From Nyssa sinensis (taxonomy: Eukaryota; Streptophyta; Magnoliopsida; Cornales; Nyssaceae): a stretch of 64,000 nucleotides of DNA. The first letter of the stretch is position 1; every line of letters begins with the position of its first letter. The notes beneath the pieces are model-generated. The model worked only from the letters and a program-made list of their open reading frames with translations, searched no databases and was not told the DNA's origin. Below, piece after piece: positions 1-60,400 of the stretch. A program made the position numbers and the translations under genes. The stretch covers positions 25,621,344-25,685,343 of the forward strand of contig CM018051.1 in NCBI GenBank assembly GCA_008638375.1, read 5' to 3'.

Positions 1-17
1 CAAAAATGTGGCCAAGA

Positions 18-80
18 GGATTTGATCCCTTGACCAAACTAGGCAAAATTTAGTTTACCAAAAATTTACCAACTAAGCTA
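18..80 (-). other. Antisense tRNA-like segment (A box, B box) in element A LTR
   Basis: On the minus strand, TAGCTTAGTTGG (80-69) fits a Pol III A box and GGATCAAATCC (28-18) fits a B box, about 40 bp apart as in tRNA genes. Past the B box the minus strand enters T-runs; in the right copy, where more is visible, the complementary A-runs lie at 8555-8559 and 8543-8549. The segment lies just upstream of the TATA-like tract and leader and is antisense to the LTR. Comparable segments occur in the LTRs of C, D, E, G, H and J. Transcription is not shown. Confidence 0.5.
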
Positions 81-96
81 AGAGCACCTTTGTGCA

Positions 97-550
97 TATA
101 TATGCAAAGATATATATTTAATTAGTAATCAGATTTGGCCTCTCCCCAAAGTGACCAATGGACATGCATGCAACACCTCAGCATGCATCACCCTAAGCCC
201 TAGCCATCATGCCTATTCCACCATGATTACATCTCCTCCCAACCAAATTGCATGCAAACCCATCATGCACTTGGGGGAGATGAAACATCAAGAAAAGAAA
301 TCTGATTTTTGATATACAATCTCCATGAGACCAGATCTGTATTGAGGGCAGTCTACTGTTTTAGAGAGAGTGTGGGTTAGAGAGAAAGGGAGAGAATCTA
401 GAGAGAGAAAGTGAGACCTTGTGTGTGCATTGGTGATCCATTGAAGAAGCAATAGAAGGGAGCTAAGATCTGGGACTGCACGGAGGGATCAAAGCAACCT
501 GTTGGAGTTTCTGTTTGAACCTAAACCAGTGAGGAGACCACTGTTTGAAG
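97..550 (+). promoter_or_regulatory. Putative LTR promoter and purine-rich leader of element A, ending at a 5' splice site
   Basis: TATATAT tracts at 97-103 and 111-119 are followed within about 250-300 bp by a GAGAGA-rich stretch and then CTGTTTGAAG|GTAAGC, with the junction at 550/551. That junction fits a strong plant 5' splice site. The same order (TATA-like or AT microsatellite, GA-rich leader, AG|GTRAG) is seen in elements B, C, E, H, I and J. No start site can be assigned from sequence alone. Confidence 0.4.
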
Positions 551-1336
551 GTAAGCCATCCAAAAACCTTGAACTTCTCTTTGGAAATTTCAGCTACTGT
601 TTTGATGTTTTTAGGATTTTTAACGCATGTATCATGTTTAAACCATAAAATCTGGATTGAATGCTCACATTTGAACCATCAGAACTGCCCCAAACCATGG
701 AAACAGTGAAATCCGCCATTAGAGGACCTTGACTGAATGGGTCTAGATCAACCTGCTCCGAACTTGTTTTAGTTACTTGGGACGTAAAATAGACCTTCCT
801 AGGATCACAAAGACCCTAGACCGCGACCTCAATACCTAGGTTTAAGCCCTCAAAATCGGCATTATCCTTTTCGGCCCAAAAATCAACTCGCAACGTTTGA
901 CCACTAAATCGAGATTGAACGATGGGGAATGGAAGCCCATGTTAAGAGGGTCACGGAGGACCAAACCCCGTGCAAAATGGTCAAGAAACCAGGCCGTATG
1001 GACCGACTGTAACTCCCACGATAATCGGCTAGAACAGTCCCCCGTCGTTGAGTTTGATGCTTGAAACCGATGCCAAACGAATGGTCTTACACCCAGGAGT
1101 CTTTTAGAACAAAAACCAGTGAAAATGGATGCTTAAAACTCTACGAAATCGAAGAAGAAAATTCTGAAATTCTAGGGCAACAGTAGCCCTAGACTGTTGG
1201 GGACGATGAACAGTGCGGGTCGGGCCATGGACCGGGTCTTCGGGTCGGGCCCCGACCCGACCGAAAAACGGATAACCCGTTAGAACCAAACTGTGTCGTT
1301 TTGTCACTGTTAAATTTAAATTTTAAACTGTAGGGC

Positions 1337-1402
1337 TGACGTCAGCCTGACGTCAGCACATTACCCTGAACCGGTCAAGACCGGATTGAACCGGTCCGGT
1401 TC
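1337..1402 (+). promoter_or_regulatory. Paired TGACGTCA sites and GAACCGG/CCGGTTC palindrome
   Basis: Two perfect TGACGTCA palindromes (1337-1344, 1348-1355), the classic bZIP/CRE-type core, are followed by GAACCGGTCCGGTTC (1388-1402), a palindrome around a central T. The pairing recurs with changes in B (GTGAACCGGACCGGTTCAC at 13737-13755), H and I. It lies beyond the presumed first 5' splice site, so it may be an intronic or downstream enhancer rather than a core promoter. Same module in the right LTR at 9890-9908 and 9941-9955. Confidence 0.4.
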
Positions 1403-1582
1403 ACTTGCTTAAGGGCTGAACCCTTTGGTTCAGTTCAAACTTTTGGAAAATTGCAAACCAACCCCCAACAGTTCCGAAATATTACACTGTGGCCCAGATT
1501 CTGATATTTTATTTCATTTATACCCCTGATAATTTAATAAATAATAAATTAATTTATTTAATTAATTTATTAATTAAATAAA

Positions 1583-2100
1583 AATGACCAAATTACCCCT
1601 AGGTCATAAATAGGTCAAATAAAGTCCAAATAAGTCAAATGAATAGTGTATTTTCACTATTTCAACCATTCCGGACTCAATGGTGGAGTCCGATTTGAGA
1701 AATTAAGTCCCGAAAAATACAAACACGTAGGAGTAAATGACCATACTACCCCTGATGATACTCGAACCCAAATACAACTAAAAGATAGTCTATTTTGACT
1801 ATGTCAGACATTCCGGACTCAACGGTGAGGTCCGTATTAGCAAATAAAGTACCGAAAAATACAACACACGAAATTACCAAATTGCCCCTGACACTGTTTA
1901 GAACCCAAACAAAGTCCGATTGAGACGAAACTGGAAACAATAGAAACCCCGACACGTAGGGGACTATACACATGATTGGATGACGAATCGGAGTCGAAAC
2001 TTCACAACTGTGAAATGACCGAAATACCCCTAACCCTGTATCAAGCTAGATAACATCCGAATGAACTAAGAACTAACCCAATGAAAGCTTAAATAATTTC
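1583..2100 (+). repeat. Diverged tandem array of ~130-bp units with a hairpin core (element A LTR)
   Basis: Three to four imperfect units. Each begins near ATGACCAAAATRCCCCT and runs through AAGTCCAAAT, ACTATTT and a GGACTC..GAGTCC core to CCCGAAAAATA and ACACGTA. Clear cores are 1673-1691 (GGACTC/GAGTCC, 7-nt loop) and 1815-1833 (GGAC/GTCC). The same unit recurs on the sense strand of every LTR family in the window. The right LTR copy spans about 10136-10650. Confidence 0.7.
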
Positions 2101-2175
2101 ATGACCGGACTGCCTAGAAGTAGTACACATCCTGACTTCTTGGATCATGCTATAGGGTAAAAACTCAAACCGGTC

Positions 2176-3136
2176 ATGGAAGGGAAAAACAAGAAATTTA
2201 CCATTATGTCTAAAGCCGAAAGACTAGCTGACAAGAAGCAACAGGAGTTCATGCAACAACTCTTATGGCAACAAAAGATTATCGAACGGAACATAAGGAT
2301 AGCCAAAACGACTGAGGTAGTCTCCGTTCGACCGTTTATATACAAGATGCGTACTAAGGAAATGGTCGCGGAGGCCAAACTAAAGAAACAGGAAGACACG
2401 GAAACCCTGAAAGAGTGGGTGCAAAGGTGAATTTCAATTATCATAAAAACACCTAGACAGCGAGATAGTCTAACTCAGGTTGAATTTTGAATTAAAATAA
2501 ACCAAGTTAAGATTCATGTGAGATTTACGAAATGTTCATAAATTTTCTAGGATAAAGAAGGATAAGAAGAAGAGAAAGGCTTCTCAGTTAAATCCCGTTA
2601 CTGCACAAGGTGAGTAACCTAGACTCCTGAATTGGTGTATAAGTACACCGTCTAGTTATTGTATTTTTATTACTGTACTGTACTGTTCCTACTGATATAC
2701 TGTCTTCCATGCTTTTACTCAATGCATGACTATATTTTACCCTGTCCGATTTCACTGTTCCGTATTGAAATGAAATTATCCTTGTTTTTACTAAAAGAAC
2801 TACTGACTCATGGTACCAAATTCAGTCTTGAACTCTGTATGAGCATATTGCACTATTTAAAGTGTGCATACTGTACTGTTAACCTGTTATACTGTTCTGC
2901 TCTGCTCATTATTGAACTGTTCTGTTGCTATGATGTTTTGACTGTATTCTTGTTTTAAATATTGTTCAAATATACGGATTTAACTATATCCTCTAAAATG
3001 TCTGATCCGACCACCTGTTTTATAAACAACAATGGTTTGAAACCCATGACAGGGGACCCGTGTTACTCACTGGGCTTTTTAAAGCTCACCCCTTCCCTAA
3101 CATTTTTCAGGTGATGGACCTAGCGACCGAGATTAG
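2176..3136 (+). CDS. LTR-embedded lysine-rich ORF, predicted spliced, copy in left LTR of A
   Basis: I do not recognise this family. An ATG at 2176 opens an 84-codon frame to TGA at 2428-2430. A splice donor (CAAAG|GTGA) falls at 2426/2427. An acceptor TTTTCTAG ends at 2550, the next exon is 2551-2609 and ends at CACAAG|GTGAGT, and an acceptor TTTTTCAG ends at 3110. Joining at these sites keeps the frame open to TAG at 3134-3136, about 111 residues. An upstream acceptor (CTATAG, ends 2155) would join it to the leader donor at 550. Visible traits: a helical, charged core with KKQQEFMQQLLW and SVRPFI, a TLKEW motif before the first splice, and a basic stretch KKDKKKRK that could act as a nuclear signal. 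It has no signal peptide, membrane segment or retroviral motif. Homologous frames in the otherwise diverged LTRs of G and I argue that it is real. Function unknown. Confidence 0.6.
3072..3110 (+). promoter_or_regulatory. Conserved hairpin (GGGCTT/AAGCTC) and 3' splice acceptor in LTR
   Basis: GGGCTT (3072-3077), a TTTA loop and AAGCTC (3082-3087) form a 6-bp stem with one G-T pair. They are followed by a pyrimidine-rich stretch ending TTTTTCAG at 3110. The block TTACTCACTGGGCTT..AAGCTCACCCC is kept in C, F, H and J with different loop bases, always just before the acceptor. The right LTR copy is at 11625-11663. Confidence 0.5.
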
Positions 3137-3502
3137 CGGGTTGGAGACCCGAAGCACTATTTTGAAGAATCCATGAATTAGCCATTTTTGTACCTAACTC
3201 CATTTTTGAATATGATGTACTGAAACCTAAGACTAGCATCTTTTGTAGGACAATGATGTAATAGTTAACCATGGATGTATTAATGGCTCTGCCAAGGTGT
3301 TATGCATTCCCTTAGTTCCGCTGCAACTTATATTAATTGAATGCATTGTACTTGGATGTTACTGATGAATGGCCTGTGGTTAGGATTACCGTCGGCATGT
3401 TGATTTCAAAAAAATAAAAAATAAAAAAAACCGATGGGTGCCTAACTGGCCGGTTGCATGCCCCTAATCCGCACAGGGTGGGTAAGGGGGATGTGACAAG
3501 GT

Positions 3503-3514
3503 TGGTATCAGAGC
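3503..3514 (+). other. Primer-binding site, element A (initiator-Met tRNA)
   Basis: TGGTATCAGAGC is the standard complement of the 3' end of plant initiator-Met tRNA. It starts 5 bp after the LTR end (3498) and primes minus-strand cDNA synthesis. Confidence 0.95.
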
Positions 3515-3684
3515 CTTAGGTTTTACATCCCGAACATAGAACAGAACCTTAGGGTCACCGAAGAACTGAACCTTTAGGGAGTATGTGCTCGAGTGGGAGG
3601 AACCTTGAGCTAATAGTGATCTAAGTATCGACCTATGAAGATACATTGAACGAGGGAACTGAAAATTACTTTATTCTGTCTCAG

Positions 3685-6600
3685 ATGCCGCCACGGACAA
3701 GGAACTGCAATAGGGAACCGCAAGCCCCGACAGAGAGTGCTGCTATACGCGAAATGCGGGCAACTTTGGCTCAGTTCGCCCGAGCTATAGAGGGGTTGAA
3801 TAGAACCCTGCAGCAGAACCAAACCGGACCAGTCAATAACCCGGCTGAAGCCCCAGCTATGCCACCCCCGCCTGTTCCGGTGCCACCTGTTGGAGTTGGC
3901 ATCCGCAACGAACTACTGGATAGGTTTCACAAGTTGAGACCTCCATCCTTCGAGACAGTCACAGAGCCTGAGCAGGCCGAAAAATGGGTGACGGCAATGG
4001 AGAAAGCTTTTGGGCTTCTAATATGTACCGAGGAGGAGAAGGTGAGGCTAGCCACTTATATGCTTCATGGGGAGGCGTATAATTGGTGGTTAGAAGTGCA
4101 ACGGCAGAACCCAGTTATGACATGGGCGGGTTTTGTGGAAAGGTTTTACAGCATGTTCTTTCCGTCGACAGTCCGTGAGAGGAGAATTCAGGAGTTCACA
4201 AATCTGCAGCAAGGAGAGATGTTAGTGATCCAGTATGCTGCAAAGTTCTCAGCCCTGTCCAGATTCGCCCCCTCTCTAATACAGGGAGAAAGGGACAAGG
4301 CAAGGAAGTTCCAAGGAGGCCTTCGCCTAGGACTTCGAACAAGGGTATCTGCTTTTGAGCTATACACTTATTCGGATGTGTTGAACAAGGCCCTTGTCAT
4401 CGAAAAGGACATGGAGGACTACAATCAACTCAAAGACCAAGGACGGAAGAACAAGGGGAAGAGTTTCCAGAAATTCCAACCCTCAAAGAAGCAGAAAACT
4501 GAAGGTCGAGGCAAAGGGGAGAAAGGTCAGAAGAAAGCAAGGGAGGTGACTAAGTGCCCACATTGTCAACAGTCTCATCCAGGAGAATGCCGCAAGCTGA
4601 CCGGTGCATGTTACCGGTGCGGGGAAAAGGGACACCTGGTCAAAGACTGCCCGCAGCCACCACCCGATATAAGAGCCCCAGCTCCGATTACCACTGCTAC
4701 GACACAGAGGCTTCTTCCAGCAGCCCCCACCAGAGATAAGGGCAAAGCACCTCAAGGACGACCAGGGAGGGTGTTTGCCCTAGTGCCAGGGGAGACATCT
4801 ACTGCCAATACTGTGGTAGCAGGTACACTCCCGATCTGTGAAACTTCTGCACATGTGCTTATTGATTCCGGATCCACACACTCTTTTATATCTCCACTGT
4901 TTACTGATAAACTGCATAGAACACCTGAACCTATGAATGAACTGTTGTCTGTACAAACCCCCTCTGGGATACGAATGATTGGGTCCAAAATCCTGAAGGA
5001 CTGTAGTGTAGAAATTGGGGATCAAGAGCTGTCAGTAGACCTAATACCCTTGGACATCAAGGGATTCGATGTGATCTTAGGCATGGACTGGCTGTCTCGC
5101 AACCACGCCACCATTGACTGTTTTGGGAAGAAGGTGTTATTTCGACGCCCGGGGCAACCCGAATTTGTATTTAGTGGAAAAGGCGTTGTTTCTCCACCCT
5201 ACCTCATCTCTGCCATCCAGGCAGGAAGATTATTAAGGAAAGGTTGTCGTGGATACCTGTGTAGCATTCTGGATACCCAAGCCCAAACTCCCCCGTTGTC
5301 AGAAGTGCCAGTTGCCTGTGAATTTCCTGATGTGTTCCTTGAGGACTTACCGAGTGGGACGGTTGATCGAGAGATTGAATTTTCTATCGACCTTGTTCCC
5401 GGAACTCAACCGGTATCTAAAGCCCCGTACCGAATGGCTCCATCAGAATTAAAAGAGCTGAAGACTCAATTACAAGAGCTATTGGAGAAGGGATTCATCC
5501 GACCCAGTGTGTCACCCTGGGGAGCTCCAGTATTATTTGTGAAGAAGAAGGATGGCTCTCTAAGACTTTGTATCGATTATCGAGAGCTCAATAAAGTGAC
5601 GGTGAAGAACAAGTATCCACTTCCACGCATCGATGAGCTATTTGATCAATTGCAAGGAGCAAGTGTGTTTTCTAAGATTGATTTACGGACTGGATACCAT
5701 CAACTTAAGGTCAAGAATACTGACATATCGAAAACAGCCTTCCGAACCCGATATGGTCATTACGAGTTCTTGGTCATGCCTTTTGGTGTGACCAATGCTC
5801 CTGCTGCATTTATGGATTTAATGAATCGGGTCTTCAAGACATATTTGGATGATTTCATCATTGTTTTCATTGATGACATATTGGTGTACTCACGGAGTGA
5901 AGAGGAGCACGAAAGGCACTTGAGAATAGCGTTACAGACCCTGAGGGAGCACAAGTTATATGCAAAATTCAAAAAGTGTGAATTCTGGCTACCCAGCGTC
6001 TCCTTTTTGGGCCATGTGATTTCGGAGGAAGGTGTTGCTGTAGACCCGCATAAGATAGAGGCTATTCTGAATTGGCCTCAACCAACCACCGTGACCGAGA
6101 TCCGAAGTTTTCTTGGGTTGGCAGGTTATTATCGACGCTTCGTTAAGGATTTTGCTAAGTTGGCGAAGCCGCTCACCCACCTGACTAAGAGCAAGGTGCC
6201 ATTCATTTGGACGGACGAACAGGAACGGAGTTTCCAACTACTCAAGGAGAAGTTGACTACAGCACCAGTTCTGACTATTCCCACCAAGGAGGGAAAGTTC
6301 GTCATTTATTGTGATGCTTCCCACAAAGGTTTGGGATGTGTCTTAATGCAAGACGGTAGAGTCATTGCCTACGCCTCTAGACAGCTTCGACCACATGAAC
6401 AGAATTATCCAACCCATGATTTGGAATTAGCGGCGGTAGTATTTGCTCTAAAAATCTGGCGCCACTATCTATATGGGGAGGTATGTGAGATCTTTACGGA
6501 CCATAAGAGCCTGAAGTACTTCTTTACGCAAAGGGAGCTGAATATGAGGCAACGGCGTTGGCTCGAATTAATCAAAGACTATGATGTGACGATCCAGTAT

Positions 6601-8202
6601 CATCCTGGCAAGGCTAATGTAGTAGCCGATGCTTTGAGCAGAAAGTCTGGCAATCTTGCCTATATGATTACTACTCAAGAGGAGCTGATTCGAGACCTGG
6701 ACGAGATGGGCATTGAGGTGATCCCACCAGGTGGTACGGCATATTTGGCCAATCTAACAGTTGAGTCTACATTGGTAGAACGGATCAAAGCAGGACAAGC
6801 TCAGGATGAGGAGTTAGTCAAAATCTTCAAGGAAGTAGAGACAATTGGAAAGACTGATTTTGAAATCCAAGAGGGAATTCTGCGGTATCAAGGCAGGCTA
6901 TGTGTGCCTAAGATAGACGAGTTGAGGAAGGAAATTTTGGAGGAAGCCCACACTTCAAGGTTCACGGTACACCCCGGAAACACAAAGATGTACCATGACC
7001 TTAGGGAACTGTACTGGTGGCCCGGTTTGAAAAGGGATGTGGCTGATTTTATCGCTCACTGTACAAGTTGCCAACAAGTAAAGGTTGAGCATCAACGCCC
7101 TAGTGGACTTTTGCAACCACTCCCTATTCCGGAATGGAAATGGGACCACATCACCATGGATTTCGTATCTGGCTTTCCCAAGTCTTCAAAAGGCTTTGAC
7201 GCAATCTGGGTCATCGTTGACAGATTGACCAAATCTGCACACTTTCTGCCTGTACAAATGACTTTCAGCATGGAAAGGTTAGCCACGTTGTACATTCAAG
7301 AAATTGTACGCTTACATGGCACACCCTTGTCCATCGTTTCTGACCGAGACCCAAGATTTGTGTCACGTTTCTGGAAAAGCCTGCAGAAGGCACTCGGCAC
7401 CGAGCTTAAGTTTAGTACGGCATATCACCCACAGACGGATGGACAGTCCGAAAGAGTGATACAGATGTTGGAGGATATGCTACGACTGTGTGCACTGGAT
7501 TTCAAAGGAAATTGGGCAGAACATTTGCCATTGGTCGAGTTCGCCTATAACAACAGTCATCAGGCCAGCATTAAAATGGCACCATATGAGGCACTGTACG
7601 GAAGGAGGTGTCGATCTCCACTCTGCTGGGCTGAAGCTAGTGAACAGAAGTTACTTGGGCCGGATCTAGTACAAAAAACCACTGAACAGATTCAGAAAAT
7701 TCGGAGTAGGTTACAAACAGCCCAGAGCCGATACAAGAGTTACGCGGATAACAGAAGAAAGGATTTGGAATTTGAAGTAGGTGACCTTGTGTTCCTTAGA
7801 GTGTCACCATTGAAAGGAGTACTTCGGTTCGGGAAGAAGGGCAAGTTAAGTCCTCGCTATATTGGTCCATTCAAGATCCTGAAAAGAGTTGGACCAGTTG
7901 CGTATAGTTTGGCGCTACCACCCGAGCTAGATAAAGTACACCATGTTTTCCATGTGTCGATGTTGAGGAAGTGTGTACTTGAACCCGGACAAGTTATTGA
8001 ACATGAGCCACTCCAACTGAGGGAGGATTTGTCATATGAGGAACAACCGGTGCAAATTCTGGATCATAAGGAAAAGACCTTGCGCAACAAGGTAATCCCA
8101 CTGGTGAAGGTTTTATGGAAGAACCACACGACTGAGGAAGCCACGTGGGAGCGCGAAGCAGAAATGCGTGAGTTGTACCCAGAGTTGTTCACTGGAGTGT
8201 AG
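3685..8202 (+). CDS. Gag-Pol polyprotein of element A, intact, 1505 aa
   Basis: The first in-frame ATG is 3685; the frame opens earlier only with a TTG at 3646, so I chose 3685, giving the MPPR start common in this group. Domains by residue: gag core about 50-250 ([10 protein letters not shown]); a Cys-rich CPHC stretch at 291 and a CCHC zinc knuckle 309-322 ([14 protein letters not shown]); protease with D394 of DSGSTHSF; reverse transcriptase with D666 and FIDD 728-731; RNase H with D877, E914 and D939; integrase with zinc-binding H1089, H1096, C1126 and C1129 and catalytic D1159, D1220 and E1256 (D-x35-E); GPF motif 1394-1396; and a chromodomain-like end (TEEATWERE). No stop or frameshift, so it looks competent for particle assembly, cDNA synthesis and integration. 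Gag and pol are in one frame; how Gag excess is achieved is not evident. The tail is expected to steer insertion to heterochromatin. Confidence 0.97.
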
Positions 8203-8230
8203 TTAGGCTGAGTTTTGGGGACAAAACTCT

Positions 8231-8247
8231 TTTGAAGGAGGGGAGGA
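8231..8247 (+). other. Polypurine tract, element A
   Basis: A purine run ending GGAGGGGAGGA abuts the right LTR start TGTAACACC at 8248. It primes plus-strand cDNA. It lies 28 bp after the gag-pol stop. Confidence 0.9.
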
Positions 8248-11200
8248 TGTAACACCCCAGACTTAATTATTAAATTATGTAATGAAAAACTCTTTTTGAA
8301 ATCTGATCTGGCATTTAACTGTTTAAATTGAACTGTTTAATACTGATCAAACCCATGTTAGCAAATGTTAAAAATTCTGAGAAACTGATTACTGTCACTG
8401 AACCCTTAGACACTGAAGCTAACCTAACTAGGAGATGACTGAAAGAAACCGCGTCGAAAATTAAGCTACAGATTGAAAGTTAGGAAGAAAACAGTGAAAC
8501 TGCATTAATGCGCAGCCAAACAGGGCCTAAGCCCGAAATATGGAAAAAAAGACCAAAAATGTGGCCAAGAGGATTTGATCCCTTGACCAAACTAGGCAAA
8601 ATTTAGTTTACCAAAAATTTACCAACTAAGCTAAGAGCACCTTTGTGCATATATATGCAAAGATATATATTTAATTAGTAATCAGATTTGGCCTCTCCCC
8701 AAAGTGACCAATGGACATGCATGCAACACCTCAGCATGCATCACCCTAAGCCCTAGCCATCATGCCTATTCCACCATGATTACATCTCCTCCCAACCAAA
8801 TTGCATGCAAACCCATCATGCACTTGGGGGAGATGAAACATCAAGAAAAGAAATCTGATTTTTGATATACAATCTCCATGAGACCAGATCTGTATTGAGG
8901 GCAGTCTACTGTTTTAGAGAGAGTGTGGGTTAGAGAGAAAGGGAGAGAATCTAGAGAGAGAAAGTGAGACCTTGTGTGTGCATTGGTGATCCATTGAAGA
9001 AGCAATAGAAGGGAGCTAAGATCTGGGACTGCACGGAGGGATCAAAGCAACCTGTTGGAGTTTCTGTTTGAACCTAAACCAGTGAGGAGACCACTGTTTG
9101 AAGGTAAGCCATCCAAAAACCTTGAACTTCTCTTTGGAAATTTCAGCTACTGTTTTGATGTTTTTAGGATTTTTAACGCATGTATCATGTTTAAACCATA
9201 AAATCTGGATTGAATGCTCACATTTGAACCATCAGAACTGCCCCAAACCATGGAAACAGTGAAATCCGCCATTAGAGGACCTTGACTGAATGGGTCTAGA
9301 TCAACCTGCTCCGAACTTGTTTTAGTTACTTGGGACGTAAAATAGACCTTCCTAGGATCACAAAGACCCTAGACCGCGACCTCAATACCTAGGTTTAAGC
9401 CCTCAAAATCGGCATTATCCTTTTCGGCCCAAAAATCAACTCGCAACGTTTGACCACTAAATCGAGATTGAACGATGGGGAATGGAAGCCCATGTTAAGA
9501 GGGTCACGGAGGACCAAACCCCGTGCAAAATGGTCAAGAAACCAGGCCGTATGGACCGACTGTAACTCCCACGATAATCGGCTAGAACAGTCCCCCGTCG
9601 TTGAGTTTGATGCTTGAAACCGATGCCAAACGAATGGTCTTACACCCAGGAGTCTTTTAGAACAAAAACCAGTGAAAATGGATGCTTAAAACTCTACGAA
9701 ATCGAAGAAGAAAATTCTGAAATTCTAGGGCAACAGTAGCCCTAGACTGTTGGGGACGATGAACAGTGCGGGTCGGGCCATGGACCGGGTCTTCGGGTCG
9801 GGCCCCGACCCGACCGAAAAACGGATAACCCGTTAGAACCAAACTGTGTCGTTTTGTCACTGTTAAATTTAAATTTTAAACTGTAGGGCTGACGTCAGCC
9901 TGACGTCAGCACATTACCCTGAACCGGTCAAGACCGGATTGAACCGGTCCGGTTCACTTGCTTAAGGGCTGAACCCTTTGGTTCAGTTCAAACTTTTGGA
10001 AAATTGCAAACCAACCCCCAACAGTTCCGAAATATTACACTGTGGCCCAGATTCTGATATTTTATTTCATTTATACCCCTGATAATTTAATAAATAATAA
10101 ATTAATTTATTTAATTAATTTATTAATTAAATAAAAATGACCAAATTACCCCTAGGTCATAAATAGGTCAAATAAAGTCCAAATAAGTCAAATGAATAGT
10201 GTATTTTCACTATTTCAACCATTCCGGACTCAATGGTGGAGTCTGATTTGAGAAATTAAGTCCCGAAAAATACAAACACGTAGGAGTAAATGACCATACT
10301 ACCCCTGATGATACTCGAACCCAAATACAACTAAAAGATAGTCTATTTTGACTATGTCAGACATTCCGGACTCAACGGTGAGGTCCGTATTAGCAAATAA
10401 AGTACCGAAAAATACAACACACGAAATTACCAAATTGCCCCTGACACTGTTTAGAACCCAAACAAAGTCCGATTGAGACGAAACTGGAAACAATAGAAAC
10501 CCCGACACGTAGGGGACTATACACATGATTGGATGACGAATCGGAGTCGAAACTTCACAACTGTGAAATGACCGAAATACCCCTAACCCTGTATCAAGCT
10601 AGATAACATCCGAATGAACTAAGAACTAACCCAATGAAAGCTTAAATAATTTCATGATCGGACTGCCTAGAAGTAGTACACATCCTGACTTCTTGGATCA
10701 TGCTATAGGGTAAAAACTCAAACCGGTCATGGAAGGGAAAAACAAGAAATTTACCATTATGTCTAAAGCCGAAAGACTAGCTGACAAGAAGCAACAGGAG
10801 TTCATGCAACAACTCTTATGGCAACAAAAGATTATCGAACGGAACATAAGGATAGCCAAAACGACTGAGGTAGTCTCCGTTCGACCGTTTATATACAAGA
10901 TGCGTACTAAGGAAATGGTCGCGGAGGCCAAACTAAAGAAACAGGAAGACACGGAAACCCTGAAAGAGTGGGTGCAAAGGTGAATTTCAATTATCATAAA
11001 AACACCTAGACAGCGAGATAGTCTAACTCAGGTTGAATTTTGAATTAAAATAAACCAAGTTAAGATTCATGTGAGATTTACGAAATGTTCATAAATTTTC
11101 TAGGATAAAGAAGGATAAGAAGAAGAGAAAGGCTTCTCAGTTAAATCCCGTTACTGCACAAGGTGAGTAACCTAGACTCCTGAATTGGTGTATAAGTACA

Positions 11201-12043
11201 CCGTCTAGTTATTGTATTTTTATTACTGTACTGTACTGTTCCTACTGATATACTGTCTTCCATGCTTTTACTCAATGCATGACTATATTTTACCCTGTCC
11301 GATTTCACTGTTCCGTATTGAAATGAAATTATCCTTGTTTTTACTAAAAGAACTACTGACTCATGGTACCAAATTCAGTCTTGAACTCTGTATGAGCATA
11401 TTGCACTATTTAAAGTGTGCATACTGTACTGTTAACCTGTTATACTGTTCTGCTCTGCTCATTATTGAACTGTTCTGTTGCTATGATGTTTTGACTGTAT
11501 TCTTGTTTTAAATATTGTTCAAATATACGGATTTAACTATATCCTCTAAAATGTCTGATCCGACCACCTGTTTTATAAACAACAATGGTTTGAAACCCAT
11601 GACAGGGGACCCGTGTTACTCACTGGGCTTTTTAAAGCTCACCCCTTCCCTAACATTTTTCAGGTGATGGACCTAGCGACCGAGATTAGCGGGTTGGAGA
11701 CCCGAAGCACTATTTTGAAGAATCCATGAATTAGCCATTTTTGTACCTAACTCCATTTTTGAATATGATGTACTGAAACCTAAGACTAGCATCTTTTGTA
11801 GGACAATGATGTAATAGTTAACCATGGATGTATTAATGGCTCTGCCAAGGTGTTATGCATTCCCTTAGTTCCGCTGCAACTTATATTAATTGAATGCATT
11901 GTACTTGGATGTTACTGATGAATGGCCTGTGGTTAGGATTACCGTCGGCATGTTGATTTCAAAAAAAAAAAAAAACCGATGGGTGCCTAACTGGCCGGTT
12001 GCATGCCCCTAATCCGCACAGGGTGGGTAAGGGGGATGTGACA
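8248..12043 (+). repeat. Element A right (3') LTR, complete, 3796 bp
   Basis: Bounded by TGTAACACC and ATGTGACA, directly after the PPT. It is the complete version of the left LTR and gives the module positions: antisense tRNA-like segment 8571-8633, TATA-like tracts near 8650-8672, first donor 9103/9104, TGACGTCA pair 9890-9908, hairpin array about 10136-10650, embedded ORF from 10729. The first 300 bp contain GCATTAATGCGCAGCC, shared with the solo LTR J, so A and J have a common ancestral LTR. Confidence 0.97.
10729..11689 (+). CDS. LTR-embedded lysine-rich ORF, copy in right LTR of A
   Basis: Same gene as the copy at 2176 and identical in its 84-codon first coding exon (10729-10983 to the unspliced stop). 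Predicted junctions are donor 10979/10980, exon 11104-11162, acceptor ending 11663 and stop TAG at 11687-11689. In this LTR any transcript would run into flanking DNA rather than into gag-pol, so the ORF could be expressed without the polyprotein. Not a recognised family; function unknown. The alternative is a chance ORF, but conservation in G and I makes that less likely. Confidence 0.6.
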
Positions 12044-12219
12044 ATGTTTGGATCAATTGATTATCTATATTGATTTAATTCTTTGCTGCAATATTGCTCC
12101 CTGGGTATATTGTCGTCGTTGGGTTCTCTCAATGTGGATAACAATTTGTGTGATTTAAAAGTGATGAATGATTTTTCAAAAGGTTACATTTGGTTTAATT
12201 TTGGTTTATAATTCTTTAT
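12044..12219. other. Old flanking DNA between elements A and B
   Basis: 176 bp of AT-rich sequence with no ORF or LTR terminus. Its last five bases, TTTAT (12215-12219), are the left TSD of element B, so it was contiguous with 21693-22133 before B inserted. Confidence 0.7.
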
Positions 12220-15200
12220 TGTAATACCCTGACCCAAAATACCGGGTCATATGACACGTATTACGAGATTTAAGAAAATTAGTGTAAAAACATTTACACT
12301 CAAAGAGAATAATTAAATAAATAAATAAATAATTAATTATTATATGAAATAATTAGTTTTAATTATAATAATATACTATATGTTTAATATGGTATGTATG
12401 TACATGAGAGCATGTATGCATGCAAGTATATATATGAAAATATGTATGTGTGCATGTATGTATATAAATGAGGAAAATAAAGTTATGTATATATATATAT
12501 ATATATTTAAAGTGTGTGAACAGTATGTGCAAGTGGGTGTGTGTGTCGGTTGTGGTGTGTGTGTGTGTCTCCATGTGTTAGTGTGTGTGATATATATATA
12601 ATATACATAAATATACAAAAAAAATCAACCCACTTGGTGATAAAGTAAAATTGGGAAGAACAAAATTATGAGATGGGATGGTAGCCAAAATTGGGGACTA
12701 AAAGAGGGCTATGGAGTAGGGTAAAACGTGTAGAGAGAGAGAGAGAATTTAGAGAGAGAAAGAGGTCGGTTACTTCCTCTTTAAAAACCAATGCATGCAA
12801 AGCTTGCTTGTTTCTCACAAAAGGAATCAAAAAGGAACTGAGGAGAATAGAGCAAGAATCAGAGCAAGAAGAAGGAGAAGAACAGTGATAAAATGTGAGA
12901 AATGTGAAAATTTTCATTTTTCTCTCTCTAGGATTTTAAGCATGATATGAACTGTTTTCAAGTTATTTAATATGTATGATGTTTGATATATGTCTAAGAC
13001 ATGAATAAGCATGAAAAATCACAAGAAAAACACTGAAAAATGACAAACTCAAGAACGACTGCCATGGATGACCTTCAAGAAAACAGGTCTGAAATGGGTG
13101 AAACTAAACGGGTTCTGACCTACCAAGACCTCAAGTTGAGGTCAAGAGGGTCCCAAATATTCCACTACGCGATCAAGAATCCTAAAGACAGCCCTCCAAA
13201 AATCAAATTTTAGGTTCGGGTTCCCAAAGCAAAACTCAAAAATATGAGATTAAACCTACCCTTGTTAATGAAATGTAAAACCTCTTGAGTAGAGGAACAA
13301 ACCAAGCTCAATCTCATGAGAAATGATTAAGAAATGAGCATGAACCATGGGTTTACAGTTCGGGTTATCATGGTTTAAACCCAACGTTTGAAGCATATTC
13401 GAAGCCCTAAATCGATACAAAAACATGTATTAAGATATTAGGAAGTGATTGGAAAAGAAAGTAGAGAAAATGGGTGCTCAAAACACCATGAAATTCAAAC
13501 TGTAAAAAATTAGGTTTCGGTGTGAACAGTGTCGACCTCGTGGGGAAGACGACACTATTCGCGTCGGGTCGGGCTATGGTTCGGGTCGGGCCTGGGTTAA
13601 ATCCGGATCCATCCGGTTATGGGTTATTTAAACGGTGACGTTTAGAGGCTAAACATTTTTAATTTTAACCATTAGGGCTAACGTCATCATGACGTCAGCA
13701 TTATGTGTAAAACCGGTTAAACTGGTTGGTTTGTGAGTGAACCGGACCGGTTCACTTGGTTTGAGACCGAACCCTTTGGTTTTCCAATTTAATTAAAAAC
13801 TAAATAAACCAAGATTTCCTCTATTTACGATTTGACCCCAACTGTTTTATGAAATTATACTGTGGCCCAACTAATGAGAAATTTATGCAATTAAGCCCCT
13901 GAAAAAATAATTAAATAATTAAATAATAAATTTAATTATTTAATAAGTAAAGTAAAATGACTATTTTGCCCCTGAATAAAAAATGAGACAGATAAAGTCC
14001 AAATTAAACATATGAATAGTGTATCCTTACTATTTTGGATATTCTGAGACTAATGGTAGGGTCCGTTTTATGAGACGGAGCCCGAAAAATAAATACACGA
14101 AAAGGGGTAAATGACCAAAATACCCTTTGTCCAAAATTAACAAGTTATTAGTATATTCTTACTATCTCGGACCTTCTGAGTCTAATGGTGAGGTCCACGA
14201 CACGAGACGGGGTCCCAAAAAATAAAGACGCGTAAAGGGGTAAAAAGACCAAAATATCCCTGGTACCCCTAAAGCCAAAATAAAACCAAAGGAGGTCTAA
14301 ATTGACTTTCTTTGACATCCCGGACTCAATAATGAAGTCCAAATTACGAAACGAAGTACGAAAAAATGTGACACGTAAAACGATAAAAGGACCATTTTGC
14401 CCTTTTATATGCAAGAGGCCAAATAAACTTTTAAGAAAGCCTAAACCGACTTTTTTCGACACTCCAGAGTCAATAATAGAGTCTATTCGACCGAAAGAAA
14501 TGTCTAAAATAAAAAGACATAAAATTTGATGAATAGCATCTGTCAGATGACTATAAATTAGAGTAATGCCAAAGTACTAATACTAAGGCGTGTATCAGAA
14601 ATGAAATACGAAAAGACACGACACGTAAACATGTCAAATAAATAACTTTAAAGTTTATGGAGCTACCAGAAGAGTATAAATTGAAATAAATTCAATTCCT
14701 AACACATTAAATTGTGTCATAGGTTAAGAGTACGAGTTAAGTTAAGTACATATGAATTATGAGATCATTTTAGGATCTAATACGATTTAAGCATAAGTTA
14801 AGGAATATCGAGATGATATTACAATGAATATGAAGTTGATGAGATGTTTATGAATTGTTCTTAGGAACTACAAGGAAAGTGGGAAAGAGCATTATTAGCA
14901 CTAACCCTAAAGGACCAAGGTGAGTAACCCTATGTTTGAAGTGGAGATTTAACTCCATGGATTTAAAAAGGTTTTAAATGCAAAGATATGAATTGTTTGA
15001 AATTTCAAATTCAGTGTTTACATGATTCAGTTTTTAATTGTTCTGTTTTATAACCCCATTGTGACATGCTCAGTGATTGGTTTCTGCAACAGTTTTTCCT
15101 TCAAATACTTTTCAGCATGTCTAGTTAAAATGAAATTATTGTTAAATATTCTAAATTTGCTTATTTCAAGTATACGAATGTTTATCACGAAGATATGAAT

Positions 15201-15432
15201 GTTATGTTTTAAAGTACTCACGAGAAATATCTATTTTGATATGCTCATATGTTAAACGTATTTTAAATGCAAGATCAATGGTGCATAAACACTTAGACAA
15301 GATTCTGAGTTTTCAGTTGCCCTGTAAAATAGGCAGGATTTTGGGTTGTACGGAACTCAATTGCCCTGTAAAATGCCAGGTAGCAGGATCTAATCCCCCA
15401 GGCATGAGATATCTCCATTTATAAGTAATATG

Positions 15433-15456
15433 GGAGTCCGGTTCGAAACGGATTCC
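15433..15456 (+). other. T-arm-like hairpin in LTR (GTTCGAAA loop)
   Basis: GGAGTCCG (15433-15440), loop GTTCGAAA and CGGATTCC (15449-15456) form an 8-bp stem with one G-T pair. The middle reads like a tRNA T-arm (GGTTCGAA). The same stem-loop with compensated bases is in H (56295-56318: GGAGTCTG/CAGATTCC) and, on the minus strand, in I (58240-58263) and D (22904-22927). Confidence 0.5.
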
Positions 15457-15545
15457 ACTAATGGAAGTGATAAGGTGACAAATGATTTGAAAATGGAAGC
15501 AGGTTTTACCCTCATTTTCAATGTGCATATGTTTTGAGTTTTATA

Positions 15546-15930
15546 TACTCTATTTACGAAATACATGTTATGTTATATGTTTTGAAGTTCATGAGTATAA
15601 GTATAGCTTGAATACTTTAAATGTTTCAAAGCCATCTGTTTTATGAAACGCATATGTTTTGAGTTATATACTCTATTTGACGAAGTACGAGTTTAGCTTG
15701 AATGCTTTAAATGTTTCAAAGCTATATGTTTTATGAAATGCATATGTTTTGAGTTATATACTTTATTTGACGAAGTACGAGTTTAGCTTGAATACTTTAA
15801 ATGTTTCAAAGCTATCTGTTTTATGAAATGCATATGTTTTGAGTTATATACTCTATTTGACGAAGTATGAGTTTAGCTTGAATACTTTAAATGTTTCAAA
15901 GCTATCTGTTTTAAGGAATGCATATATTCT
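15546..15930 (+). repeat. 90-bp tandem repeats in element B LTR, about four units
   Basis: The phrase TGTTTTATGAAAYGCATATG recurs with a 90-bp period (near 15637, 15727, 15817, 15907). Each unit includes TTTAGCTTGAATACTTTAAA and TTTCAAAGC. The right LTR has the same array at about 20720-21105. D, G, H and I carry a single unit. Confidence 0.85.
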
Positions 15931-16517
15931 GTATTCAAAGTATACGAACAATTGGCGGTGATTATTTTACAAACTCTTATGTACTAAACCACTGCTAATT
16001 GAAAACCCCATGACGAATACTGGAATTGCTCACAAGCTTAGATTAGCTTACCCGGACTTTGTTCGGACCCCCCTTTAAGGTGATTCACAGCAGACAGGGT
16101 CTCGAGGACGATGGCGATGAGTCTAGCTGTTTTTGGGAAGATATGTTTAAGTAGTTTCTTTTGAGGAACCTATGAACTCTCGTAGTACATTTTGTATTAG
16201 TAGACAATGTAAAAATATGTATTAAGCCCTCAGGGCAACCGAACATGTTTTGTATTAGTATTATAAGTCCTTAAGTTTTAGTTATACTCTGAATGTGTAA
16301 CCATGTATGCTATGTATGGAGCGGCAGTATCGGACGGATGTGCATAATTTAAATGAGAAAAAGAAAAGAAAAAGTTTTTCACGCTTTCGCAAAACGCATG
16401 TCGCACATCTATTCGATATCGCTGCCTATGTGAGCCTTCGCCCAAGGGTCCTCGGGCCTGAGGGTGGCGGTCGCGATCCGGTGATCCGCAGAGGGTGGGT
16501 TTCGGGTCGTGACAACA

Positions 16518-29571: not shown

Positions 29572-29588
29572 ATTGAAGGGGGGAAGAA
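29572..29588 (+). other. Polypurine tract, element C
   Basis: GAAGGGGGGAAGAA abuts the right LTR start at 29589. Confidence 0.88.
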
Positions 29589-32559: not shown

Positions 32560-33330
32560 AATACAAACGGATCGGAACATGACATAACCAATCGGTCAAA
32601 ACAATAACTATTGCTAATATATCGGTCAAGACACAGACTTTTCATTAACGGAACGAATTACAATCGGGACTGAGTGGGAACAATAAGTCAGTCAAGACAG
32701 GGGCATATAATCAATGGCTAGAACATAGCGGAGTTGAACAAGATCAATCAAGACAAGGCATACCAATAACAGGACGGAAACATAACGGAACTAGACCATC
32801 TATCAATCAGGCCAGACATATCATCAACGGACGGAATATAACGGAATCGAACGGAAACAATACATCAGTCAAACAAAGGCATATCGCGAACGGATAAAAT
32901 TAGAACGGAACTAAACGGAAACAATACACTAATCAGGACACAGGCAAATCATGAACAGGACACAACATAACGGAACTGGGTAGAAACAATATAACAATCA
33001 AGTCAGGGACACATCACTGTCGGAACTAATCATAACTGGACTGAACAATGTTTCAATCAAGACAGATGTATCATCAACGGACAGTACACAACGGAACTGG
33101 ACCATATATCAATCAAGGCAGACACATTATCAATGAACGGAATATAGCAGAATCGAACGGAACAAAACATTAGTCAAAGCAAAGACATATCATCAACGGA
33201 CAAATCATAACGGAACTGGACCATATATCAATCAAGACAAACGGATCATCAACGGACGGAACATGTCAGAACCGGACGGAACATAACAACCGAAGCAGAC
33301 ATATCATTAACGGACAGCACATAACAGAAC
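32560..33330 (-). repeat. ~60-bp imperfect tandem repeats in solo LTR J
   Basis: Phrases such as ATCATCAACGGACGGAA, TAACGGAACTG and ATCAATCAAGACA recur about every 60 bp across some 770 bp, roughly a dozen diverged units. No ORF. It lies in the intron-like part of the LTR between the exon-like block and the last 3' splice site, where B has its 90-bp array. Confidence 0.75.
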
Positions 33331-50348: not shown

Positions 50349-51873
50349 TGTCACGACCTGAAACCCACCCTGTGCGGATCTCGCATTACGACAGGCACCC
50401 TTCGGCTCGGGGGCGTTGGGGCGAGGCTCACATAAGCAACAGTATCAGACAGGGGTGCGACTTGTGTTTGCGGAAGCGTGAAAAACTTTTTCTTTTCTTT
50501 TCTTTTCAGATTTTGAATTTTCGCACATCCGCCCGGTACTGCCGATCTTCACATTGGGACACATGATTATACATTCAGAGCATAATAAAAACTTAAAGAC
50601 TTTATAATTACATTCATATTCAGTTGCCCCATGGGGCTTAATACATAACAGTGTACTATCTTCTAATAGAAGTCACTAACTAAAATTTCATAATGTTCTC
50701 CAGAAGACTGCTAATCCTAAAATAAGCTTCTATGCCCTTCCTCAAAATGAGCATAGTTCAACATCCTCATCATCAAAATTAGGACTTGCTTTTAGTCACC
50801 TGAAAGGAGGGTCAGATGAAAATCCGGTAAGCTAATCTAAGCTTGTGAGTAATTCCAGCATTTGTCATGGGGTTTCAATTGGCAGTGGTTAGTATAAGAG
50901 ACTTTATAAAACAATGACCACCAATTGCTCGTATACTTTGAACACAAAATATATGCATTCTTTTAAAACATAAAGCTTTGAAACATTTAAAGTATTCAAG
51001 CTAAACATGTATTTCTTCAAATAGAGTATAAAAACTCAAACATATAGATACGCACAGTGAAAATGAGGGTAAAACCTGCTTCCATCTTCAACATAACATC
51101 TTATCACTTCCATTAATAGAATTTTTTTCGAACCAGACTCTCGTTTTTACTTTTCATAGAGATATCTCATGCCTGGGGGATTAGATCCTGCTACCTGGCA
51201 TTTATTCGTATCGTGGTTGAGTTTTGAAGAAACCCAACAAAATCCATGGTGCTTATGCACAAGTTATCTTGCATTTAAATACATTTATCATATGACTTTT
51301 TCACATAGATGCTTTTATGAGCATTCAAAATATAACATTCATGACTTCACAATAAATTTTCAAATACTTGGAATATACAAATTCAGAATACTTTACATAA
51401 TTTTGGCATTTTAAACTTAGACATGCTGAAATATATTTTTAGGAAAACTGTAGTAGAAACCATTCACTGAGCATGTCACAATTGGGTTTATAAGAACAGA
51501 ACAATTTAAAACTGAAATCATGTAAATACTGAATTTGGGATTCACTACTTCATATCTTTTGAACTTAAAACGTCTTCAAACCCGTGGAGTTAAATCTCCA
51601 CTTCAAATACAAGGTTACTCACCTTATAGGTCTGGGCTAGCTCTATTGTTGTGCCTTCCCTTTCCCCTTTTTCAACCTAAAATAATTTATGAAAATTTCA
51701 TAAATTTCACATGCATTTAAATCAACTTGTGATCCTACCTATTCTTAGACCGTGTAAGCCTACTTTCTATAATAGGTTTATCCTTAATAATTTAACTAAC
51801 TCAATTTGATTTATAGTTGTATTCTATGTCTATTTACCTTATACATATATTCTTATTGATAAATAGACATTAC

Positions 51874-52118
51874 CTGCGAAGCATGTCTTTTAGCGTTTTG
51901 GTATTTTCTTGGTTTTCCTTTTCTTCTTTTAATTTTGCCTCAGTAAGTCTCCTTGCTGCTGCTTCTTGCATGAGTCGCCCCATTGGGACGATACGGGTTT
52001 TCTACATGAATGGCCTAACTAAGATGATTTGACATGTCTTGGCGATTCTTATCTTTCTGTTGATTACCTTATTTTGCCATAAAAGTTCATCTAGGGAGTC
52101 TTGTTGAGTCTTATCCAT
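51874..52118 (-). pseudogene. LTR-embedded lysine-rich ORF in element G, one stop
   Basis: Homologue of the ORF at 2176. On the minus strand ATG (52118) opens a frame aligned with A, with blocks LLWQNKVI, RIAKT and VRPFM and a lysine/glutamate-rich end. The one in-frame stop, TAG at 52004-52002, falls where A has Tyr. The frame ends at CGCAG|GTAATG (51874/51873), the same splice phase as A, and an acceptor TGTTTTAG lies just upstream of the ATG. The next exon-like block (about 51612-51672) is flanked by an acceptor-like TAG and GTGAGT but has stops. Decayed, but clearly the same gene. Confidence 0.6.
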
Positions 52119-52699
52119 GATAATTTCTTGAGCTTTAACCTAAAACACAATTTAACGTGTTAGGAATTAAATTTCATTTCAATTTATACTCTTTTGTTAG
52201 TTTCATAGATTTTAAGTTTAATTTTATTATTTCACATGTTCACGTGTCACGTCTTTTCGTACTTTATTTCAAAATACGAACCCTACTATTTAGCTCAGAA
52301 CATCGAACAACATTCTAGTTTATAGTTACATGACTTTATGCTATTCATCAAATTTTATGTCTTTTTATTATAAATACTTTTTTTGGTCAAATAGACCCTG
52401 TCATTGAGTCCGGAACGTCAAAGAAAGTCAATTTAGACCCTTTCTGGTTTCGATTTGGCTTTAGGGGCACTAGGGGCAAAATGATAATTTTTTCCCTTTA
52501 CGTGTCTTTATTTTTCGGGGTCTCCTCTCACAAAACGGACCTCACCATTGGTCTCAGAAGGTCTAAGATAGTAAAAATACACTAATAACTTGTCCAATTT
52601 AGACATCGGACCATTTCGTCATTATTTAATTTAATTAATTTATTTTATTTTATTTAATGTAATTTATATATAATATATATATTTTCATGTGTTAAATGG

Positions 52700-57472: not shown

Positions 57473-60400
57473 TGTCACGACCCGAAACCCACCCTCTGCG
57501 AATTTCGCATCGTGACCGCCACCCTCAGGCCCGAGGACCCTTGGGCGAAGGCTCGCATCTGCAGCGGTATCGAATAGATGTGTTTCAAGTGCTTGCGGAA
57601 GCGTGAAAAAATTTTTCTTTTCTCATTTTAAAATTTGCACATCCGTCCGATACTGCCGCTATTCACAATGGTACACATGAATATAAAATCAGAGCATGAT
57701 TTAAAACTTAAAGACTTCATACAAATCTATGTCTAGTTCTCCCTCGGGACTTAATTACATAACATCAATTGTTTCTGCCCAAAATAACTAACTAAATTTC
57801 ATAATGTCTCCCAAAAAGAAAACTACTCGTCCTACACTTAGTTGTTCATGCCCTTCCTCAAAATGGGCAAGACTCTAATCATCATTCCCATCAGCCAAGA
57901 CTGCTATCGGTCACCTGAAGGGGGGCGGATAAAATTCGGGTAAGCTAATCAAAGCTTGTGAGTAATTCCTGCATTCGTCATGGGGTTTTCAACTGGTAGT
58001 GGTTTAGCACATGAGAGTTTATGAAATACGCACTACCAATTGCTCGTACATTTTAGAACACAGAATATATGCATTCTTAAAACGGATAACTTTGAAACAT
58101 TTAAAGTATTCAAGCTAAATGCACATTTCTTCAAATAGGGCATATGCAAGTTAAAAGCATATAAACATGTGTAATAGAATGGGGTAAAACCTACTTCTAT
58201 TTTCAAAATTACTTTGTCATCTTTTCTCTTTAATTAGGTGGAATCTGTTTTGAACCAGACTCCCATTTTACTGCAATGCTACAATGGAGATATCTCATTT
58301 GCCTGGGGGATTAGATCCTTCTACCGGACAATTCTTCGTGTCATAGTTGAATCCCGAAGGATTTCAACGTCACATGTGGTGGTACTTAGTACCGTTTATC
58401 TTGTAAAACATTTATCACATGACTTCTTCAATAGATACGTTCATAAGTATTTAAAACATGAAATGTATAACTTCTACCATGAAGCTTCAAATACATGTGA
58501 TGATCAAATTCAGAATATTTAAAGAGATTTGCATTTGATTTAGACATGCTAATTATTTTCAAGAAAGGAGCTAAATATAAAACATTTATCAAGCATGCCG
58601 TAACAGAATATTTTAAAAGAACGGAATCATATAAAGGCTGAATTTGATATTCAAAGGCTGCAATTACTTGAACTTAAAACTTCTTCAAATATATGGAGTT
58701 AAATCTCCAGTTCAAATACAGGGTTACTCACCTCGTATGTCTAGGTTGGCTCTATAAAGGCGCCTTTCCTTTACCCTTCTTCTTCCTTAGCCTATCAAGA
58801 TTTATGAAGATTCTATAAATTCCATATGTGCTTAATCAACTTCGTAACTCACCAATTGTAGACAGTGAAAAGCCTAAATTCTCATACTGGTCCGACTTAT
58901 AACTGTATTATAAATCTAGCAACTTATGTATTTAATGATAATAATATTACCTACGACGCATTTCAGCTAAGGTTTCAGTGTTTTCTCTTTCCTCTTCCCT
59001 TTTCTTTGCTTTCTCTTTCTTTTTCTTAGCCTCGGCCACCATTGTCTTGGTGGGTGATTTATGAATGAATGGTCTCACCGAGATGACCTCCGTTGCCTTG
59101 GCTATCTTGATGAACCTAGCAATCACTCTCTACTGATGTAACAGTTCTTGCATGAAGGCCTGTTGTTTTGGATCCTTAGCGCTTTGGGCCTTGGTCATGA
59201 TCGTGAACTTCGGTCGTTGTTCTTCTATAATTATCACCTAAGATCAATTTATGAGTTAGAAATTTTATTCTAAGGTTGATGTGTTGTCGTGTCTTTTCGC
59301 AATTCATGTCCTCGTATACGCCGTAGATTAGAACTTGGTATTACTTTAATTTATAGTCATCTAACAGATGCTATTCATCAAATTTTATGTCTTTTTATTT
59401 TAAACATTTCTTTTGGTCGAATAGACTCTACCATTGAGTCCGGAGCGTCGAAGAAAGTCGGTTTAGGCTTCCCTAGAATTTAATTCGGACTCTTGTATGT
59501 ACAAGGGAAAAAGGGTCATTCATCGTTTTACGTGTCATATTTTTTTGTACTTCGTTTCGTAATTTGGACTCCATTATTGAGTCCGGGATGTCAAAGAAAG
59601 TCAATTTAGACCTTCCTTGATTTTAATTTGGCTTTTGAGGTACTAGGGGTAATTTGGTCATTTTACCCCCTTACGTGTCTTTATGTTCGGGACCTCATCT
59701 CGTGTCGTGGACCTCACCATTGGACTTAGAAGGTCCAAGACAGTAAGATTAGACTAATAACTTGTTAATTTTTGGACAAGGGTATTTTGGTCATTTAGCC
59801 CTTTACGTGTCTTTATTTTTCGAGCCTCGTCTCATAAAACGGATCCTACTATTGGCTTTAGAATATCCGAAATAGTAAGGATACACTATTCATATACTTA
59901 ATTTGGACTTCATTTGCTCTATTTATGACCCAGGGGCAAAATAGTAATTTAACTTTATTTATTAAATAATTAAATTAATTATTTAATTATTTTCCAGGGG
60001 TCAAAATGAATAAGTTTTCCCTCAGTTGGGCCCCAGTAGAATTTCTTAGAAAGTTTGGGGTCAATCCATAAATAAGGAAAGATTTGGTTTATTTAATTTT
60101 TAAATAAATCAGAAAACCAATTGGTTCAGTCCAAGTATAAGTGAACCGGTCCGGTTCAGTTGCAAACCAACCGGTTTGGTCGGTTCTTGACATAATGCTG
60201 ACGTCAGCCCTAATGTTTTAAAACATTAACAACAAAACGTCACCGTTTACATAACCTGTGACCCGTTGGATCCGGTTTTGACCCAAACCCGTAACCAAGT
60301 CCGACCCGACCCGAACAGTGTTGTCTTCCCCACGAATTCGACATTGTTCACTGCAAAACCCTAGATTTTTCAGTTTGATTTCGTGCCATTTTACGAACCT

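Follow-up and report, generated by a model that had tools for sequence, protein, structure and literature searches.

The LTRs of plant retrotransposons are normally described as control sequences only, and a selected spliced gene located within an LTR would therefore be missed. We asked whether such a gene exists in a stretch of 64,000 nucleotides of the Nyssa sinensis genome (the window), in which a chromovirus-type element, denoted here element A, carries the same open frame in both of its LTRs. The first-pass annotation of this DNA held that extra ORFs of plant elements normally lie in the interior rather than in the LTR, in agreement with the available text of a review that describes the additional ORFs of plant LTR retrotransposons as internal, usually located between pol and the 3' LTR, and that urges looking for spliced transcripts (PMC7264820). 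A 2019 survey, according to its available text, counted extra ORFs only if they had at least 250 codons (PMC6317226). Our analysis suggests that the LTR of this chromovirus type probably contains a spliced gene that encodes an accessory protein, small and basic, with gag-pol expressed through an alternative splice and the unspliced RNA serving as the genome, all at predicted splice sites.

Element A has an intact gag-pol, and a portion of its left LTR lies beyond the window (Table 1). Over the part seen, its two LTRs are set apart by two substitutions and an 8-base gap, all outside the exons and splice sites, and this near-identity indicates that the insertion is young. The gag-pol region is a single open frame (3646-8202, with the gag ATG at 3685), and Pfam families along the 1518-aa polyprotein occur in the order gag, protease, RT, RNase H and integrase, which is the gag-PR-RT-RH-INT order of plant chromoviruses (Ty3/gypsy) in one polyprotein. 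A PF00385 chromodomain match was observed at the integrase C-terminus (1469-1514, E 5.7e-4), scoring 20.2 bits against a cut-off of 25.1 bits. We take the primer binding site of A to be of the tRNA-Met type, and presume that the element belongs among the Tekay/Del-type chromoviruses. It resembles these in its Gag-protease-RT-RNase H-integrase order, its weak chromodomain match and its TGGTATCAGAGC primer site, and differs from them in the LTR-encoded protein, which is absent from their description in the available text of PMC6317226. At the edge of the window, a gag-region stretch on the minus strand (62804-63772) is 32% identical to A and is probably another gypsy element.

The first-pass annotation had reported an 84-codon frame in the LTR of A that ends at a splice donor, and we find this frame, and a good donor, at the position given in Table 1. 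The coincidence of stop and donor is automatic, because the TGA stop is built from the donor AAAG/GTGA and a phase-2 GTRA donor always makes such a stop. The length of the ORF alone is also within chance, as an ATG ORF of at least 84 codons turned up in 168 out of 1000 sequences made by Markov shuffling of the A LTR (3.5 kb). The frame had further been said to stay open across two additional exons; this holds in A, where joining 2176-2426, 2551-2609 and 3111-3136 generates an open 111-aa frame, but not in the LTRs G and I, whose spliced frames terminate within exon 3, so that A alone of the three uses a third coding exon. Other points of the annotation hold as well: the predicted 111-aa protein is short and basic (pI 10.0) and has a lysine-rich tail that is conserved, homologous frames interrupted by one TAG apiece are found in I (51 of 93 alignment columns identical to A, E 4e-25) and G (37 of 85, E 1e-16), and the splice phase is phase 2 in A, G and I alike. 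When a profile of the frame was compared with the six-frame translation of the 64-kb window, the matches were both A LTRs, I and G, with everything else at E of at least 3.

Table 1. Coordinates of the features discussed in the text (positions are those of the window).
Feature	Position	Strand	Remark
Element A, left LTR	1..3498	+	about 305 bases lie beyond the window edge, by offset to the right LTR
Element A, right LTR	8248..12043	+	TGTAACACCCC ... GATGTGACA; same frame as left LTR
A primer binding site TGGTATCAGAGCC	3503..3515	+	within the predicted gag intron
A gag-pol, intact	3685..8202	+	predicted splice acceptor CTGTCTCAG abuts its ATG
A frame, left LTR	2176-2427	+	84 codons
A frame, right LTR	10729-10980	+	84 codons
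Exon 1 donor, A (predicted)	550..551	+	AAG/GTAAGC; top of 181 GTs in 1-3700
Exon 2, A left LTR	2156..2426	+	coding from ATG 2176
Exon 3, A left LTR	2551..2609	+	lysine-rich tail IKKDKKKRKASQ...
Exon 4 coding part, A left LTR	3111..3136	+	TAG stop 3134-3136
Exon 2, A right LTR	10709..10979	+	ATG at 10729
Exon 3, A right LTR	11104..11162	+	
Exon 4 coding part, A right LTR	11664..11689	+	
Exon 2 homologue, LTR I	58951..59237	-	one TAG; ATA at the position of A's first ATG
Exon 3 homologue, LTR I	58732..58791	-	tail LRKKKGKGKAPL
Exon 2 homologue, LTR G	51874..52139	-	one TAG
Exon 3 homologue, LTR G	51623..51676	-	tail LKKGKGKAQQ
Element B, LTRs	12220-16514, 17404-21687		4.3-kb LTRs; about 0.9 kb between them without gag-pol match
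LTR E	about 38146-39290		
LTR H	54600-57137		
K, LTR-like insertion of 5.4 kb without the frame	31881-37300	-	divides the right LTR of element C into two parts, 29588-31880 and 37292-38058
Block TTACTCAYTGGGCTT(N4)AGCTCACCC	3064-3111, 11617, 25708, 37661, 46857, 56660	+	
Block TTACTCAYTGGGCTT(N4)AGCTCACCC	32420	-	

Purifying selection was evident in exon 2 at several depths of comparison. In DNA-only alignments of the A, I and G pairs, the change at third codon positions was 0.60-0.62, as compared with 0.27-0.35 at positions 1 and 2 (Fisher p = 1.3e-6, 2e-6 and 7e-5), while the intron 3 control between G and I displayed no codon-position bias (0.32 vs 0.34). The gaps kept the frame in A/I (27 bases) and I/G (33, 3, 15 and 3 bases); those in A/G measured 32, 2, 33 and 12 bases, the two that are not multiples of three coming first in order, where G begins late, and those of the intron control 13, 1, 4, 1 and 6. 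Pairwise omega, as determined from a protein-guided alignment, was 0.012 for A-I (saturated), 0.081 for A-G and 0.146 for G-I (2dlnL against omega 1 of 59.5, 30.9 and 24.8, respectively). Codon models applied to 36 genomic copies over 89 codons gave an omega of 0.143 on internal branches and of 0.444 at the tips, the latter being a value that the choice of stop-free copies can lower (lnL -3445.0 with two ratios, -3463.6 with one and -3589.5 at omega 1; 2dlnL 289 against omega = 1, with the two-ratio model beating the one-ratio model by 37). This set consisted of 21 copies from the G search, picked from 31 rows counted by eye as stop-free among the best 150, and 12 from the P0004 search (described below), all stop-free, together with the A, G and I copies of the window with stops masked; an earlier set of 24 copies had given 0.17 on internal branches and 0.36 at the tips. 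Intron 3 could be located at 17 of the 21 loci tried; in these, differences at codon positions 1, 2 and 3 were 0.198, 0.153 and 0.399 in exon 2, and 0.232, 0.261 and 0.253 in intron 3 of the same loci.

Constraint on internal branches with relaxation at the tips is the mark of a gene that is used by the element and decays after insertion. We reject a chance ORF or a relic on these codon-position and omega tests, although length alone did not reject chance, and the sequence supports reading exon 2 as coding and under purifying selection, with a conserved lysine-rich tail contributed by exon 3 in one and the same splice phase.

The frame is not restricted to this locus. A protein search returned three relatives, all from ENA, and P0004, an ENA protein, is 76% identical to the A frame. 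As queries against the genome (1.00 Gb, 211 contigs), the A frame, the G frame and P0004 yielded 3743, 3665 and 3860 first-look candidates, respectively, in lists that may overlap; for each query the 150 best-scoring rows, a non-random sample, were scored, and stop-free copies and pairs were counted by eye. All 150 matched the A frame, with 147 lacking an internal stop, and about 25 same-strand pairs among these places were 8.5 kb apart, which is the spacing of the window's two A LTRs. All 150 also matched P0004 (the top one 96% identical, 130 without an internal stop), and the best 150 for the G frame, including the window copy, were 61-100% identical, 31 of them stop-free. The matches are found mainly on contigs C1-C22. 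When 20 G-type copies were examined together with 4 kb downstream, gag-pol was not matched in 16, was in the opposite orientation in three and in the same orientation in one (L051). Two of the three stretches between paired G-type copies likewise had no gag-pol match, and the third (pair 5.8 kb apart) contained, besides a primer site, a degenerate sequence that resembles gag. In viral contigs, 101 stretches fit the peptide pattern, none of them related, the primer-site pattern had no match, and the one match to the DNA pattern (L001) had no tblastn match better than E 0.2; in prokaryote contigs, 340 stretches fit the pattern, again none related. The first-pass annotation had placed the frame in the LTRs of several families, and had named homologues beyond this locus and dN/dS between copies as its checks: the best 150 all match for each of the three queries, the frame is genome-wide and spans deeply diverged families, and dN/dS is far below 1, in the window pairs as on the internal branches of the 36 copies.

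Other LTRs in the window lack the exon, as a profile search of the 64 kb found none in LTRs B, E, H, C/D and K/F, and the frame is therefore not something that these elements always carry. The LTRs of B, E and H keep the exon 3 sites and carry, where exon 2 would be, another sequence that matches among the three. B is a large non-autonomous element whose LTRs are without the coding exon, and C has pol remains yet is also without it, so that not every family requires the protein; the LTR gene is widespread yet optional. In intron 1, the frame-bearing I (57473-60953) is closest to the frame-less B, and the frame-bearing G (50349-52720) to the frame-less E, which implies more than one loss or exchange of the exon.

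Whether the coding exon is a mobile cassette, exchanged or lost between families through LTR recombination, is a matter on which we are evenly divided, and an affirmative answer would be compatible with the explanation that we favor. The LTR of I closely resembles that of G over its length (0.63-0.88 identical in 80-base windows), but in the exon 2 tree the I copy is placed among A-type copies and the G copy elsewhere, suggesting that the exon moves between LTR families, as does its replacement by one matching stretch in B, E and H. Against this, both window copies, I and G, are old and no longer intact.

The exons are joined, in our reading of the LTR as a spliced gene, at sites that rank high among those predicted in A. 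Scored over 1-3700 with position weights that allow only rough ranks, the donors at 550, 2609 and 2426 rank 1, 2 and 4 of 181 GTs, and the acceptors at 3111, 3685, 2551 and 2156 rank 1, 5, 7 and 17 of 211 AGs. The exon 1 donor and the sites of exons 2 and 3 are kept in a second family, whose gag-pol is 78% identical to that of A in the part read. The exon 1 donor of this family scores highest among the 109 GTs in the corresponding part of L077, and is separated from the exon 2 acceptor by about 1.66 kb, as compared with about 1.61 kb in A. In L075 and L076 of the same family, the gag ATG abuts an acceptor TTGCTTCAG, even though the stretch from primer site to gag has diverged from that of A at most of its bases; the exon 4 site was not found in the stretches examined. 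Upstream of the last LTR exon, the conserved block TTACTCAYTGGGCTT(N4)AGCTCACCC occurs in the LTRs of A, C, F, H and K, whether or not they have the coding exon, and is thus more widely shared than that exon; it is followed downstream by CTAAC and CAG in A and H, with F having CAAG for CAG. At its 3' end, intron 2 has a stretch of roughly 40 bases that is conserved between A (2518-2550), G (51677-51712, minus strand) and I (58792-58830, minus strand), and that is near-palindromic in G (ATTTATGAAATTTTCATAAAT). As an RNA hairpin this stretch was rejected, because its folding energies resemble those of shuffles (z of 0.22, -0.31, -1.07 and -1.19), so that what remains is the conservation of its sequence. 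We also discarded a basic frame found in exon 1 of C (29991-30293), which is purine-rich and whose reading frame is lost in D, and Rfam gave no match at gathering score in 1-12100.

Under the proposed model, a single primary transcript would begin in the LTR and meet one of three fates: full splicing within the LTR, from the donor at 550 through exons 2, 3 and 4, which would generate the accessory protein; splicing from an LTR donor to the acceptor that abuts the gag ATG, which would generate a short-leader gag-pol mRNA from which the primer site is lost; or no splicing, which would leave an RNA with the primer site as the genome for reverse transcription. Because the gag splice removes the primer site, only unspliced RNA could be copied. 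The regulator would let unspliced or partly spliced element RNA exit the nucleus or escape splicing, as do Rev or the Rem protein of MMTV, and LTRs without exon 2 would rely on protein from other copies. This role, as a nuclear RNA-binding regulator of the export or splicing of element RNA, is the likeliest assignment, though a tentative one; a protein made from spliced RNA only, in an element whose unspliced RNA is needed in the cytoplasm, would fit a Rev/Rem role, and the 84-aa core could be read from unspliced RNA too. The protein had no Pfam match above cut-off and no PDB fold match at E <= 0.001, and the AlphaFold2 model (four sequences; mean pLDDT 75.6, pTM 0.42) is confident in the first helix and unsure of the hairpin and second helix.

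The Rev/Rem role has only a slight advantage in fit over anti-silencing or transcriptional control. The protein may possibly act on LTR DNA or chromatin instead of RNA, as an anti-silencing or transcription-activating factor for which VANC of the VANDAL elements is the comparison, and we hold this alternative with similar reserve. It would suit a small basic protein encoded in an LTR that also carries the promoter, as well as the more than 3600 first-look candidate places for each of the three queries. However, no domain was found among Pfam families and PDB folds, and the spliced layout and the gag acceptor suggest a logic at the level of RNA.

A third reading, which we consider improbable, is that the unspliced 84-aa frame alone matters, and that its continuation into exon 3 is a by-product of leader introns serving gag expression. 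A GTRA donor closes exon 2, and the stop that it makes closes the unspliced frame, in 33 of the 36 copies (it is missing in L041, L055 and L056). Splice-like sites for exon 3 are present even in LTRs that lack exon 2, and exon 3 is purine-rich, such that phase 1 is also basic (4.31 K+R in nine residues, vs 5.28 in phase 2) and phase 0 is about as open as phase 2 (a median of 14.5 vs 13 codons). But G-like copies meet a stop immediately in phase 1, as do nearly all P0004-like ones in phase 0, and hence phase 2 alone is open across both groups. The boundaries of exon 2 and of exon 3 recur across families that otherwise share little, and the phase-2 tail is open for at least nine codons in 31 of the 32 copies (of 36) in which exon 3 was located; the pattern found no exon 3 in L040, L041, L045 and L059, and the tail test failed in L049, which has an altered exon 3 acceptor. 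For A this tail reads RIKKDKKKRKAS and for the P0004-like family RLKEKKRKAP, while others have RLRKDKGKAP, RLKREKGKGKAT or RLTKGKGKVP, so that R-L-K/R...K-x-K-A is kept in one phase despite deep divergence and an exon length of 53-60 bases, which argues against a by-product. A captured host exon or a decaying relic without present function is very improbable, since, although stops interrupt most scored G-type copies (31/150 best-scoring stop-free, by eye) and the window copies of I and G are broken, low internal omega with tip relaxation is the pattern of an element-used gene and the best-scoring copies of the two other families are mostly stop-free (147/150 and 130/150, by eye).

The spliced LTR gene that we favor resembles several known systems in part. 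Like the aORFs or eORFs of plant elements (as described in the available text of PMC7264820 and PMC6317226), it is a conserved frame other than gag-pol, present in many copies and with no assigned function; unlike them, it lies inside both LTRs, is shorter and is apparently split by introns, whereas aORFs are internal (PMC7264820, available text). The 3' LTR of MMTV is described as encoding Sag and Rem (PMC3840357), and Rem as being produced from doubly spliced RNA and boosting the export of unspliced RNA (PMC2661877, PMC3840357; available text in each case). The common trait is an accessory protein encoded within an LTR, which in the case of Rem is a small regulator made from doubly spliced RNA. 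However, MMTV is an animal retrovirus, whereas here the exons and introns of the frame are within each LTR of a gag-pol element, and the likeness is one of layout. Sag, moreover, is a type 2 membrane glycoprotein, whereas the LTR frame matches no Pfam family above cut-off and has a predicted helix-hairpin-helix fold. With Rev/Rex-type regulators the frame shares a small basic protein, a predicted multiply spliced RNA and an element that also needs unspliced RNA, a likeness in genetic layout only. A literature search of titles and abstract openings, a weak one as most subscription journals are outside its coverage, retrieved no announcement of a plant LTR-encoded protein.

In its fullest form, which we regard as rather unlikely, the proposal would describe chromoviruses with a splicing-controlled cycle resembling that of complex retroviruses, in which each LTR would be a complete Rev-like gene, solo LTRs would be potential sources of the protein, and elements without the exon would be served in trans. 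A selected, spliced LTR gene would by itself mean that an element protein may continue to be produced from solo LTRs, that the length of the LTR in such families is in part that of a gene with its introns, and that plant retrotransposons may control splicing as complex retroviruses do.
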